Shown: positions 531-37,280 of the stretch, piece by piece
Numbering within the stretch: position 1 is the stretch's first letter
Layout of the letters: each line of letters opens with the position of its first letter
Assembly (NCBI GenBank): GCA_017634975.1
Contig: JAGBMJ010000015.1
Span: 1 to 64,000, forward strand
From: Lachnospiraceae bacterium
GTDB lineage: Bacteria; Bacillota; Clostridia; Lachnospirales; Lachnospiraceae
Reading direction: 5' to 3'
DNA: 64,000 nucleotides
Notes under the pieces: model-generated
What the model saw: only the letters and a program-made list of their open reading frames with translations
The model's database searches: none
What the model was told of the DNA's origin: nothing
Program-made: the position numbers and the translations under genes

Positions 531-645
531 AGATGTGGGTAAGCAATCATGAACTTTGTTGACCACAGTGTGTTCTTAAGCTCTGGCGGGACCTGAGGTT
601 TGATAAGTTACCAAGGAGTGCGAGCCTCCGGCTCGTTGACCACAT
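531..645 (+). ncRNA. Candidate structured leader RNA, copy A (upstream of protease)
   Basis: The first 19 bases are identical to those of copy B at 1521-1627, and the similarity continues in blocks. Helix 1: TGTGG 534-538 with CCACA 563-567. Helix 2: 572-578 with 604-611, with a small internal loop. Helix 3: CGAGCC 621-626 with GGCTCG 630-635. Helix 2 uses different base pairs in the two copies (A-T against T-A and T-A against A-T at two positions) yet still pairs. That is what selection on RNA structure looks like. The element ends about 25 bases before the protease start. I know no named riboswitch with this sequence, so function is open. Confidence 0.45.
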
Positions 646-668
646 GAAAAATATAGGAGAGCTGAAAG

Positions 669-1520
669 ATGGCAATTATACCGGAGTTTTATAAGGATGC
701 AGTTGTGGCGCTTGGTATAGACGGATCGGATGGTAAAAGACATTGGGTCGGAACTGGCTTTATGGTCGGTAGACTAGAAGAGGGATCTACGGATCGCTAT
801 ACTATCTATATTTTGACGAACAAACATGTGGTCGAAGGGTTCAGTTCGCTTCTCGTTAGATTCAATAATGCAGAATCTGTCGGAGTCAAAGATCTGGAAA
901 TGCCGCTTATTGAGAACGGAAAGAAGCTTTACGCTGAACACCCAAAAGAGGAATCGGATATAGTTGCGATTCAAATTCTTCCTGGAGTTATCATTACAAA
1001 TCGTCTCAAGCTAAGCTTTTTGAAGCTAGAAGAACATGCTTTGACGTTGGAAAAGATGCAGAGGACAGGTGTGGATGAGGGAACGTTGGTTTATACTTTA
1101 GGCTTTCCAATGAATCTGATGAATGAAAAGATCAAAGCACCGATATGTAGACTAGGTTGTATATCACGAATTGCAGATGCATTTGTTGAGCCGGATAAGG
1201 CAAACGACTTCCTTGTTGATGCAGAGGTTTTTTCTGGAAATTCAGGAGGCCCTGTTTTCAATAGACCAGAAGTCGTGTCGATTGAAGGAACTTCTTGCAA
1301 TGGCAGTTGCAACCTTATAGGCATTTTGAGCGCATATGTTCCTTACCGGGAGTTGCTTTACAGCAAACAGACAGATAGTGTACGAATGATTCAGGAAGAG
1401 AATAGTGGCTTGACTATTGTTCATCCGGTGGATCGAATCAAGGAAGTTGTTGAGTTGGAATGGCGGCGACATCAGATCAAGCAAGATAATGTGCAGGACA
1501 GGGAAAAGGCAGAAGTGTGA
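669..1520 (+). CDS. Trypsin-like serine peptidase (S1 fold)
   Basis: The 283-residue protein has a complete trypsin-type triad by motif: His53 in LTNKHVVEG, Asp97 in ESDIVAIQI, and Ser192 in SGNSGGPVF, with VYTLGFPM between the last two. There is no signal peptide or membrane segment, so it should act in the cytoplasm. An AGGAGAG ribosome-binding site precedes the ATG. It lies between two copies of a similar leader RNA and directly upstream of a KAP-type NTPase gene. Stand-alone trypsin domains next to large P-loop NTPases occur in several anti-phage systems, where the NTPase senses and the protease acts. A defence role here is inference from that pattern; a housekeeping protease is possible. 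Confidence 0.85.
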   Translation: MAIIPEFYKDAVVALGIDGSDGKRHWVGTGFMVGRLEEGSTDRYTIYILTNKHVVEGFSSLLVRFNNAESVGVKDLEMPLIENGKKLYAEHPKEESDIVAIQILPGVIITNRLKLSFLKLEEHALTLEKMQRTGVDEGTLVYTLGFPMNLMNEKIKAPICRLGCISRIADAFVEPDKANDFLVDAEVFSGNSGGPVFNRPEVVSIEGTSCNGSCNLIGILSAYVPYRELLYSKQTDSVRMIQEENSGLTIVHPVDRIKEVVELEWRRHQIKQDNVQDREKAEV

Positions 1521-1627
1521 AGATGTGGGTAAGCAATCACGACCTTGATGACCACAGGGTGTAGATAAGTACATTAGCTCTGAAGCTGACGGATTGATAA
1601 ATGTACCATGAGTGTGAATGAGCACAG
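1521..1627 (+). ncRNA. Candidate structured leader RNA, copy B (upstream of KAP NTPase)
   Basis: This is the second copy of the element at 531-645. It starts one base after the protease stop codon and ends about 50 bases before the NTPase start. Helix 1: TGTGG 1524-1528 with CCACA 1552-1556. Helix 2: a perfect seven-pair stem, GTACATT 1569-1575 with AATGTAC 1600-1606. Helix 3: GTGT 1612-1615 with GCAC 1622-1625. The unpaired blocks AGCTCTG and TTGATAA are shared with copy A. A copy inside the operon suggests each gene has its own RNA control. Confidence 0.45.
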
Positions 1628-1680: not shown

Positions 1681-3897
1681 ATGGAAGCAATGACAGATTA
1701 TTACAAAAAACAGATTATTGGCTATATTTCTGATGAGAGATATAAACAGGCACTGCTTATAGATGGAGATTGGGGATCTGGCAAGACCTATTTTGTTGAC
1801 AATACATTAATTCCTGAATTGGAAAAACTTGAATTTGTAGTTTTTAAGCTTTCGCTTTATGGTAAAACTTCTATTTCAGACATTCAAAGCGAACTATACA
1901 CACAAATGATTCAATATAAATTAAGTAAGAATGAGGACTCTAAGGCTATAAAAGTGTTGAGTACTTTTAGGTCTAATAGACTTGTGAGCTTGTTAGGAAC
2001 TCCACTTATAAAAACATTGGAGAATAAGCTTGGAGTCAATGAAGGTTTTGGCGATGGAATAAAGGAATGGCTTGCGAGCCTTAGCGATACAAAAATAGTA
2101 TTAATTTTTGATGATGTCGAAAGGTGCAAGATTGACATTATAGAACTGATGGGGTTCTTAAACAATCTTTCTGAGAATAACGGGTACAAAATAATACTTG
2201 TAGCCTTCGAAAAAGAAATTGAGAAGAGAATTGATAGAACGGCATTGGCTATGCAGTATGGGGTCGCTTTATATGCATATATGCAAGGCGAACATACACC
2301 ATCGACTACAAAAGATATTAGAACAAATAGTCAAAATGCAACAGGAAATAATTGCTCAGATAGTGGTAGGAAAGGACACCTCAAGGAGAAAATTGCTGAG
2401 TATAAAGAAATGCTCTTTGCGGAGGGTAATCTTTATGAGAGAACAAAGGAGAAACTTGTTGGAAGCACTGTGAAGTTTAATCCTAATATTGATGAGGTTT
2501 ATGATATCCTTGCCAAGAATTATGTTACAAGTGAGGAAAGGCAGAAACACGTTATAACTCATAAGGATATAGTTTTGTCACGGTTTAATCGTAACTCACA
2601 CACAAATCTTCGAACTCTTATCAATATCTTCATATGCATAGATAGGATTTTTGATGTTGTAGATAGGGTTGTAGTTGATTTTGAATGCGTAAGTGATGTT
2701 AAAGCTGATATTTCACAATTTATCGATGATGAAAGATTAATAATACTGGAATATGTGGCTTACGAGTACATTCGGTCTGTAAAAGGTGAATCCTTGCGTG
2801 AATGGAATGGTAAGAGATATGGATTTGGAAAATCTAAATATGGCTCTTTGTTTGTAGATGATGCACCGTTTGGATATGCATTTGTGGATGAATATATCAA
2901 TAATATGTATCTGAATGAGAACACCATAAGGGAAGACATTTCCGAAAGAATAAAAAACCTTATAGATGTTCATAAGTCGAAACTAGAAAGTGAAGAATAC
3001 AAAAAATTATCCGTCTTTAAGCTTAAAGAATGGTACTATCTGAAAGACGAAGACGTAATAAGGCTTATCAAGGTTCTCGAAGAAGAATTATCTGAGAATA
3101 AATATTATCCTCAAGACTACAAAGAAATAATACTTCTGTTGATGGGAATCAATAATCCTGAATTTGGTATGCATCCAACTAAAGAGAGAATCAGAACTGA
3201 AAGTGGCTATTTATTGGAACCCGCAGCTGTTGATTTTGACGAAAAAGCTCAGGAGTGGACTATTTCACATGATGAAAAAGTTAAGGATGACGGTTCCAGT
3301 AAAACTCAAGATAATGTCCCATATTCTGGTTATGAGTATATAGATATAAAGAAATATGTTGAAATAATGACAAGGCAGGAAGCATCGAAAGATCTCACAA
3401 GACAGATGCTTAATATTTTTACAGATGATATTTCATTTGCAGAGTCGTACAGAAGACTTATTGAGCCTTTACTTGCAATGGTTGATGAAAAAGAAAAATC
3501 TGCATTAAAAAGTTCAGGGTTAGAAAATGAAGAGACTTTTAACAATTGGGATGAGAAATTATACAATTTCTGCAACAAGAATAAAAATGAATATTTGATG
3601 AAGGGACAATTTCTTTCATTATACGATGAAGGAACGATTCTAAGAAAATTAGAAAATGCAGACGCTGAAGAGATAACGTATTTGCGAGATACATTAAATA
3701 ATATTTACTCGTTCAGCAATCTGAATGATGCTTATTCCAAAGATTATAGTTTGATAGAAGAAATATGCAAGTTGATTATGAGAGATAGGGAAAATAACAG
3801 GAAGAAATACAATTCGGGTAATTCACGAACTAAGGAGATTGCTTTGCGAATGTTAGAAACAGATCTGCAGGACATATTACAGAGATTAAGTCCATAA
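1681..3897 (+). CDS. KAP-family P-loop NTPase
   Basis: The 738-residue protein has Walker A GDWGSGKT at 29-36 and Walker B LIFDDVER at 141-148. The pattern (WGSGKT near the N-terminus, hydrophobic-DDxxR) is that of KAP P-loop NTPases of the STAND-like group, which includes phage-exclusion proteins such as PifA. No transmembrane helices are evident, unlike many KAP proteins. The long helical C-terminal part (about 250-738) is unrecognised and may be a sensor or partner-binding region. An AGGAGA site precedes the ATG. It probably works with the upstream trypsin-like peptidase. The gene is AT-rich relative to the core genes in the window. Confidence 0.8.
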   Translation: MEAMTDYYKKQIIGYISDERYKQALLIDGDWGSGKTYFVDNTLIPELEKLEFVVFKLSLYGKTSISDIQSELYTQMIQYKLSKNEDSKAIKVLSTFRSNRLVSLLGTPLIKTLENKLGVNEGFGDGIKEWLASLSDTKIVLIFDDVERCKIDIIELMGFLNNLSENNGYKIILVAFEKEIEKRIDRTALAMQYGVALYAYMQGEHTPSTTKDIRTNSQNATGNNCSDSGRKGHLKEKIAEYKEMLFAEGNLYERTKEKLVGSTVKFNPNIDEVYDILAKNYVTSEERQKHVITHKDIVLSRFNRNSHTNLRTLINIFICIDRIFDVVDRVVVDFECVSDVKADISQFIDDERLIILEYVAYEYIRSVKGESLREWNGKRYGFGKSKYGSLFVDDAPFGYAFVDEYINNMYLNENTIREDISERIKNLIDVHKSKLESEEYKKLSVFKLKEWYYLKDEDVIRLIKVLEEELSENKYYPQDYKEIILLLMGINNPEFGMHPTKERIRTESGYLLEPAAVDFDEKAQEWTISHDEKVKDDGSSKTQDNVPYSGYEYIDIKKYVEIMTRQEASKDLTRQMLNIFTDDISFAESYRRLIEPLLAMVDEKEKSALKSSGLENEETFNNWDEKLYNFCNKNKNEYLMKGQFLSLYDEGTILRKLENADAEEITYLRDTLNNIYSFSNLNDAYSKDYSLIEEICKLIMRDRENNRKKYNSGNSRTKEIALRMLETDLQDILQRLSP

Positions 3898-4047
3898 ACA
3901 ATTATATGAATGGTAATGTGAAGTGTTCTATTGATGGTCAGTAATCTGGATATTGATGGCAACATGGTGGTTGAGAAATATTCCCGGAACAGAGGGGGTG
4001 ATTGCTTGCCAGGTTCTGCGCCCTACGGGTGTTAATCGCACTAAAAA

Positions 4048-4110: not shown

Positions 4111-4150
4111 GTGCCTGTCACTGTGAACTTTTCTTCACAGTGACAGGCAC
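4111..4150. repeat. 17-bp perfect inverted repeat (REP-like or terminator)
   Basis: GTGCCTGTCACTGTGAA at 4111-4127 is the exact reverse complement of 4134-4150, around a six-base loop. I recall similar GTGCCTGTCAC palindromes scattered in intergenic regions of Clostridia. Here it separates the accessory module from the polysaccharide locus. No transposase of the REP type is in the window. Confidence 0.65.
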
Positions 4151-4227: not shown

Positions 4228-5358
4228 ATGGAGCGTGCATATAAAATGTATGATTTTTTGATTATCGGAGCAGGATTATATGGAGCGGTGTGTGCCAGGG
4301 AACTGACGGATGCCGGGAAGAAAGTACTCGTTATAGATAAACGATCACATATCGCAGGAAATGTTTATACGGAGAAGATCGAAGGAATAAATGTACATAA
4401 GTACGGAGCACATATCTTCCATACAAACAATAAAAAAGTCTGGGATTATGTTCAGCGTTTTGCAACATTCAATCGTTTCACCAATAGTCCGGTAGCTAAC
4501 TATAAGGGAGAGTTATACAGCCTCCCTTTTAATATGTATACATTCAATAAGATGTGGGGAGTGGTAACTCCGGAAGAAGCTGCTGCAAAGATCGAAGAAC
4601 AGAGGAGAGAAGCAGAGATCACAGAACCGAAGAATCTGGAAGAACAGGCAATCAGCCTGGTTGGAACGGATATCTATGAAAAACTGATAAAAGGATATAC
4701 GCAGAAACAATGGGGAAGACCCTGTGATCAGCTGCCGAGCTTTATCATCAAAAGATTACCGGTAAGATTAACTTTCGACAATAATTACTTCAATGCACTT
4801 TATCAGGGTATTCCGATTGGCGGATATACAAAGATGGTCGAGAATATGCTGTCCGGGATCGAAGTAAGAACCGGTGTGGATTTCTTTGAGCATAAAGAAG
4901 AATTAATAGCAGATGCTAAATCGGTGATCTACACTGGTCCTATAGATGCATATTTCAATTATAGTCTCGGAAATCTCGAATACCGTTCCGTACGTTTTGA
5001 AAATGAAATATTGGATAAACCAAACTTCCAAGGAAATGCAGCTGTAAATTACACAGATGCTGAAACACCGTGGACGAGGATCATTGAACATAAGTGGTTT
5101 GAGTTTGGCAAGGATGAGGATGGTAATGATCTGCCAAAGACTGTGATCAGTCGAGAGTACAGTTCCGAATGGAAACCGGGAGATGAACCGTATTATCCGG
5201 TGAATGATGAGAAGAATAGCAAATTGTATGCTGACTATAAGGCCCTTGCTGAAAAAGAAAATGATGTGATCTTTGGCGGAAGACTTGGTGAATATAAGTA
5301 CTACGACATGGATCAGGTTATAGCAGTTGCTTTAGAGATAAGCGTAAGTTTGAAATGA
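4228..5358 (+). CDS. glf: UDP-galactopyranose mutase
   Basis: The enzyme converts UDP-galactopyranose to UDP-galactofuranose using reduced FAD. The N-terminus has the Rossmann FAD motif IIGAGLYGAV. Family hallmarks follow: KYGAHIFHTN, YTQKQWGRPCDQLP and VNYTDAETPWTRIIEHK, with FGGRLGEYKYYDMDQV near the end. At 376 residues it is full length. AAGGA upstream suits the ATG at 4228, but the ATG at 4246 (MYDFLIIG) matches the usual family start. It opens the polysaccharide locus, is followed by its own terminator, and supplies UDP-Galf for the glycosyltransferases downstream. Confidence 0.95.
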   Translation: MERAYKMYDFLIIGAGLYGAVCARELTDAGKKVLVIDKRSHIAGNVYTEKIEGINVHKYGAHIFHTNNKKVWDYVQRFATFNRFTNSPVANYKGELYSLPFNMYTFNKMWGVVTPEEAAAKIEEQRREAEITEPKNLEEQAISLVGTDIYEKLIKGYTQKQWGRPCDQLPSFIIKRLPVRLTFDNNYFNALYQGIPIGGYTKMVENMLSGIEVRTGVDFFEHKEELIADAKSVIYTGPIDAYFNYSLGNLEYRSVRFENEILDKPNFQGNAAVNYTDAETPWTRIIEHKWFEFGKDEDGNDLPKTVISREYSSEWKPGDEPYYPVNDEKNSKLYADYKALAEKENDVIFGGRLGEYKYYDMDQVIAVALEISVSLK

Positions 5359-37193: not shown

Positions 37194-37280
37194 AAAATCA
37201 TGAAGTGCAGCTGGCTGCCATTTAACAGGCCCTATAGCTTTGCGTCACAGAATTTCTACTGCTTTGCCTTTTGAATTTTG
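37194..37280 (-). promoter_or_regulatory. Cyclic-di-GMP-I (GEMM-I) riboswitch aptamer
   Basis: Read on the minus strand, the element contains GGCAAAGCAG, a GAAA tetraloop hairpin, GACGCAAAGCTA, TAGGGCC, TTAAATGGCAGCCAG and CTGC in the exact order of class I c-di-GMP riboswitches. AAAATTCA and TGATTTT at the ends can form P1. It lies upstream of the prepilin/ATP-grasp operon and is followed directly by a terminator. Confidence 0.9.

Follow-up and report, generated by a model that had tools for sequence, protein, structure and literature searches.

The first 64,000 nucleotides of contig C123 of a Lachnospiraceae genome (G000), called the window here, carry near their start a gene for a trypsin-like protease followed by a gene for a P-loop NTPase. 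A preliminary description of this DNA reported that an apparently structured sequence stands ahead of each of the two genes and took it for a possibly new leader RNA. The question raised by the locus is what this element is, how far it is shared by other genes and other genomes, and whether it may act as RNA on each gene separately.

Copies of the element in the window and in related genomes

The element is about 105–120 nt long, and alignment together with model searches places three copies of it on the forward strand of the window: c1 (531–648, +) upstream of the protease gene; c2 (1521–1630, +) upstream of the NTPase gene, its first base being the one directly after the protease stop codon; and a diverged copy, c3 (3925–4045, +), between the NTPase gene and glf. 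The repeat first described is real, but the count of two has to be raised to three. The first 19 bases are identical between 531–645 and 1521–1627, and the blocks AGCTCTG, TTGATAA and GAGTG each occur in both stretches, as had been read from the sequence. Local alignment of c1 with positions 1401–1900 gives a score of 234, against 115 for the highest-scoring of 200 Markov shuffles; c1 and c3 score 145 (best of 200 shuffles, 108), and c2 and c3 score 122 (best of 200 shuffles, 114). A model built from c1 and c2 only (R1), in whose training c3 had no part, gives c3 13.0 bits with an E-value of 0.49 for 206,603 bases. The likeness might have come from duplication of a longer coding or mobile sequence, as the preliminary description itself had considered, but the aligned similarity is confined to the element; since it stops where the element stops, c1 and c2 are not remnants of a longer duplicated stretch. 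A shared coding frame is argued against by length differences of 1 and 5 bases among the copies.

Searching related genomes with a model built from both copies, a check proposed at the outset, led to relatives in two further genomes, G624 and G756. A search of 392 genomes from the order with R1 gave matches at E <= 1 in 11 of them, and G624 stood out besides the window's own genome with copy g1 (locus L062:10040–10163, forward; 30.4 bits, per-genome E-value 4.7e-4). As this value holds per genome and 392 genomes were searched, g1 by itself is not significant; it is made so by further copies within 5 kb and by the alignments of c1 and c2 to L062. Against L062:9001–14050, c1 scores 207, at g1 (best of 200 shuffles, 130), and c2 scores 160, a thin margin over the best of 200 shuffles at 152. 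A second model (R2) was built from six copies (c1–c3 and g1–g3), whose own R2 scores are inflated by construction; it matches g1 as well as g3 (L062:9085–9190, forward), g2 (L062:13820–13930, forward) and a weak fourth copy, g4 (L062:11076–11197, reverse; 18.3 bits). Two sets were searched with R2, 392 genomes from the family and 47 from the genus of G624, and the second search yielded t1 in G756 (L140:9566–9669; 34.1 bits, per-genome E-value 2.9e-5), a copy outside the training set of the model. Among the 392 family genomes, 63 had matches at E <= 1, and the convincing copies were the window's own; the best of the others had an E-value of 0.0056 per genome, which is roughly chance level for 392 genomes and hence not convincing. 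The three genome sets overlap partly, and filtering in these large runs was strict, at the cost of weak matches.

Weaker candidates were examined and set aside. Five of the nine genomes outside G000 and G624 that matched in the order search were searched again in larger loci and rejected by eye. The genus search gave matches at E <= 0.5 in 10 of the 47 genomes, and G624 and G756 were accepted; eight regions from it were searched again, of which t1 was kept and the other seven overlap reading frames, as do the remaining matches (L135 being left out of this judgement). Of the 30 loci stored from the family run, one is the window's own, and the other 29 (L092–L120) were screened for conserved blocks: L099 alone had two, beside a reading frame, and was rejected. 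Alignment found no further copy in ten stretches taken from polysaccharide and LoaP-like regions. Viral contigs were covered by five pattern scans; R2 scored no higher than 16.0 bits (E 0.19) on L121–L125 and L153–L215, and loci L049 (by eye only), L199 and L213 there resemble coding sequence.

In total, model searches and alignment count eight copies in three genomes, all of one bacterial family. Most pairings of copies score above their shuffle controls. Some margins over the best shuffle are thin (114 versus 106 for t1 and c1; 117 versus 113 for c1 and g3), and the family is weakened by two pairs whose scores were reached by shuffles, g1 with g2 by 8 of 200 and t1 with c3 by 1 of 200. The nearest relative of c1 is c2 (234), and c1 is nearer to g1 of another genus (207) than to c3 of its own locus (145). 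On these sequence comparisons, the homology of the copies is well supported.

Genes beside the copies

Downstream of c1, an AGGAG that by eye resembles a ribosome-binding site (655–659, +) precedes the ATG at 669 of the protease gene (669–1520, +), which is PDC-S45-like (Pfam PF13365, 4.3e-10; PADLOC PDC-S45, 1.2e-25). The next gene (1681–3897, +) encodes a KAP-family P-loop NTPase and is PDC-S49-like (Pfam PF07693, 6.6e-10; PADLOC PDC-S49, 2.5e-40); in PADLOC, PDC-S45 and PDC-S49 are candidate systems. The placement of one copy ahead of each gene of the pair is as first noted. Following c3 is glf (4228–5358, +), for UDP-galactopyranose mutase (Pfam PF03275, 1e-81; TIGR00031, 5.3e-124), which stands at the head of polysaccharide genes. 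The interval between c3 and glf also holds a 17-bp perfect inverted repeat (4111–4150) that is terminator-like on the minus strand.

The genes in the other two genomes are different. In G624, g2 lies upstream of a gene for UDP-glucose dehydrogenase, and g3 lies upstream of a UPF0489-domain gene if the ATG at L062:9207 is its start. The longest frame of that gene (L062:9051–10040) encloses g3 and is open from 9051 through it, so that g3 could be coding, and this position inside the frame counts against a leader. Downstream of g1 there is only a 32-codon frame that starts with TTG, the frames listed after it being on the opposite strand, which likewise counts against a leader. The stretch between g1 and g4 looks non-coding and contains three repeats of about 93 nt (L062:10750–11036), with the palindrome AACCACAACATCTTGTGGT in two of them and a variant in the third. 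In G756, t1 lies upstream of a Thoeris locus that PADLOC reads as ThsB, ThsB, ThsA and ThsB. Overall, six of the eight copies (c1, c2, c3, g2, g3 and t1) are followed on their own strand by a gene of some size, g3 with the internal start codon just described, and the distance from element to start codon is shortest for g3 (about 16 nt) and longest for c3 (182 nt). Two further points count against a leader: g4, to which no gene is assigned, and two tail-like fragments lie on the opposite strand, and mechanically called minus-strand frames of 127, 105 and 81 aa run across c2, g2 and t1, respectively. The reverse-strand tail matches are at L062:13701 (−) and L140:9502 (−), a short way past the stop codons upstream of g2 and t1; we estimate that chance alone would give a few matches of this kind in every 20 kb.

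The element had been presented as a companion of the protease/NTPase pair, and this tie does not hold, as copies also stand ahead of glf and of the UDP-glucose dehydrogenase, UPF0489 and Thoeris genes. To judge from the genes that follow the copies, the element goes with a kind of locus, in which defence genes lie beside polysaccharide genes, and not with one gene family. At 13 loci around relatives of the NTPase, in 12 other genomes, R2 had no match up to E 5, and two R1 matches (11.3 and 8.6 bits) were at chance level. The same 13 loci, two of them cut by contig ends, gave no relative of the protease (blastp at E 0.01, frames of at least 70 aa). Other searches for relatives of the proteins gave one plasmid match, at 24% identity.

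Possible RNA structure of the element

Alignments of the copies bring out four conserved blocks (a 5' GGU, UGACCA, GAUAA and the tail), from some of which c3, g3 and t1 deviate. The GGU is kept in all six copies that have a comparable 5' half; in c1 it is part of a GGTAA block (538–542, +) that could be the 5' strand of a long-range helix, P1, with TTACC at 608–612 as its partner. UGACCA falls in the presumed loop of hairpin P2 in five of the six copies compared. This possible hairpin would span 553–571 (+) in c1, with the heptaloop TTGACCA at 559–565, and 1542–1560 (+) in c2, as ACCTTG-ATGACCA-CAGGGT. The block GATAAGTTACC of c1 (602–612, +) is conserved, in varied form in c2, c3 and t1, and so is the c1 tail, TTGACCACA (636–644, +). 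Directly before the tail, in a fixed place, c1 has hairpin P4, CGAGCC-TCC-GGCTCG (621–635, +).

P4 has a three-base loop and stands directly before the tail, (A/U)UGACCACA or its equivalent, in c1, c3 (4018–4032, +; loop TAC), g1 and g4, with stems that differ among these copies. In c2, g2 and t1 the hairpin is lacking, and in g3 it is broken, which counts against a leader. Its presence at this place in four of eight copies compares with a chance of about 0.8% per copy (binomial 3e-7), and in a hand alignment of five copies 26 of 30 cells are paired (shuffle mean 17.6; none of 5000 shuffles reaches 26) and five pairs are changed on both sides, a number reached by 38 of 5000 shuffles; all of these figures are optimistic, because the rule was fixed after the sequences had been viewed, the copies share ancestry and the alignment was adjusted by eye. 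In hand alignments of the other helices, pairing found no support beyond conservation: 31 of 43 cells are paired in P1a (shuffle mean 31.2), 17 of 18 in P1b (17.0) and 30 of 36 in P2 (28.7).

Three matching helices in both copies, with two swapped pairs in the second helix, had been claimed at first, and neither was reproduced. The minimum-energy folds of c1 and c2 differ from each other and are no stabler than those of shuffled sequences (z of −0.51 and −0.23, respectively; −0.33 and −0.92 with longer 3' ends). RNAalifold predicts 11 pairs for c1 and c2 together, none of them with both sides changed, and zero pairs for six copies. The strongest helix of c1 and c2, UGUGG/CCACA, was rejected as the core of a fold: it is identical in the two copies, missing among the helices listed for c3, g2 and g3, and present in g1 in a four-pair version only, at a different place. 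An intrinsic terminator within the element was also rejected, with no T run after P4 in c1 and no terminator-like site in scans of c1–c3 and g1–g3. A leader peptide noticed by eye (MWVSNHEL.. in c1, MWVSNHDL.. in c2) was discarded as well, as no ribosome site was seen upstream and g1 has no ATG there. Taken together, the alignments support an RNA structure of the element in part.

The expectation that no named RNA family would cover the element was borne out by comparison with Rfam 15: the whole window, searched at gathering score, had no match over c1, c2 or c3, and a search of positions 480–1700 up to E 10 gave two matches far below their gathering scores, neither of them over c1 or c2. The sole Rfam match in the window at gathering score is a c-di-GMP-I riboswitch (37203–37278, −). 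The EAR element of Bacillus eps operons (Rfam epsC) is a structured RNA in a polysaccharide operon. The present element shares this polysaccharide setting with EAR but is repeated and also stands before defence genes, and the window copies match no Rfam family, EAR included, at gathering score. Literature searches, whose scope did not extend to the candidate lists of structured-RNA surveys (e.g. PMC8040213), found no description of the element. As far as nucleotide sequences allow, it is a probable new family of structured leader RNA.

Possible roles of the element

The element can tentatively be read as a cis-acting 5' leader RNA of a new family that would control each gene separately, a possibility we hold with somewhat less than even confidence. 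The retention of P4 with a changing stem, the recurrence in three genomes and the placement before genes all point to a leader RNA. The copies stand one per gene before successive genes on the same strand, and no terminator signature follows the hairpin, which suggests separate control of each gene after transcription has started: within a shared transcript, each copy would act on the next gene through translation or mRNA stability. In c1, g1 and g2, the GGU can by eye be paired with several ACC blocks, and the 5' GGU block may pair in turn with the ACC blocks in the P2 loop, after GAUAAG and in the tail. Through such alternative pairing, the leader might switch folds on binding of a protein or ligand. 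Of the original proposal of an RNA element controlling each gene separately, the per-gene placement, the recurrence and the novelty with respect to Rfam have stood, but the three-helix fold has not. That convincing copies were found in three genomes only counts against a leader.

The best specific rival is antitermination of the LoaP type, in which P4 in the nascent RNA would load a LoaP-like NusG paralogue and the polymerase would then read through the island into the polysaccharide genes; we consider it unlikely. LoaP of B. velezensis binds a UNCG-type hairpin, and the dfn and mln hairpins to which it binds resemble the present element in being RNA hairpins in the leaders of long operons under the control of a NusG paralogue (PMC12691694). 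UNCG-like loops can be read in some copies of the element as well: three of the four P4 loops, taken with the next base, read UCCG, UACG and UUCG, in c1, c3 and g4 but not in g1. By eye, however, this reading holds for c1 and c3 only if a base is bulged out, and it breaks down for g4, in which a triloop pairs better. The dfn element is one small hairpin, whereas the present element is about 110 nt long and repeated, with P4 in half of its copies; the lack of P4 in the other half counts against LoaP loading, and a processive factor should need one site only.

The surroundings of the copies are divided on the same question. A LoaP-like gene ends 255 nt upstream of g3 in G624 (NF033641, 5.9e-29; 101.3 bits, below the cut-off of 125), and in the window's genome a similar gene (E 1.2e-47 to that of G624) stops 59 nt short of a contig end, on C121, while the window forms the start of C123. 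However, C121 and C123 are joined by no overlap, and a position at a contig end is not special, because two of the five LoaP-like loci of G000 end at contig ends. No LoaP-like gene was found within about 30 kb on either side of t1. Conversely, the LoaP-like loci of G112, G168, G036 and G113 have no copy in the 1.5–16 kb viewed downstream, and R1 found no convincing copy at the five such loci of the window's genome. Contigs C6, C121, C116, C17 and C67 of that genome hold nine matches to the LoaP model, all below the family cut-off and some presumably ordinary NusG; on C116, pieces matching the model stand in a row just upstream of a second glf-like gene. More doubtful still is the further idea that a LoaP-like NusG paralogue recognizes a novel class of RNA signal, whose repetition along islands of mixed content would bring anti-phage defence genes and surface-polysaccharide genes under one antitermination switch.

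Alternatively, the copies could be a decaying, low-copy intergenic repeat without function. Their strong divergence, the weak inverted copy and the fragments agree with decay, as do folds that are no better than those of shuffles, but P4 is retained while its stems change, blocks are conserved between genera, and the accepted copies lie in one locus per genome instead of being dispersed (in searches with strict filters), all of which makes this an improbable explanation.

DNA recombination or cassette-boundary sites that delimit exchangeable genes are another alternative, and a quite improbable one. The attC sites of integrons are variable elements with conserved short blocks between successive genes. 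The present element is likewise variable, has short conserved blocks and sits between successive genes, in the window in the order element–gene–element–gene–element; copies occur in both orientations, reverse tail-like fragments precede g2 and t1, and the cargo genes differ among the three loci. In G756, a gene of the phage integrase family is located some 12 kb away from t1 (L149:1382–2434, −; PF00589, 9.3e-40), and an IS110-family transposase gene lies about 15 kb from g2 in G624, near a contig end (L090:9549–10727, +; PF01548, 5.4e-43). Neither gene adjoins a copy, however, and such genes are common in islands; with no integrase noted beside a copy and one 12 kb away, the element would differ from attC, whose core consensus was compared by eye. 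In plasmid and phage collections, c1, g1 and t1 had no match with an E-value below 0.3, nor had g2 in the plasmids, and a boundary site does not require a hairpin kept before the tail near the next start codon.

The suggestion that the element is a trans-acting RNA belonging to the protease/NTPase system is unlikely, because copies also precede unrelated cargo genes and no convincing copy was found at the 13 loci of NTPase relatives. Should the element be a regulatory RNA, such as the leader tentatively preferred here, unrelated defence systems and surface-polysaccharide genes would share a leader and possibly respond to a common signal, and the element would provide a handle on how defence islands stay silent or get switched on.
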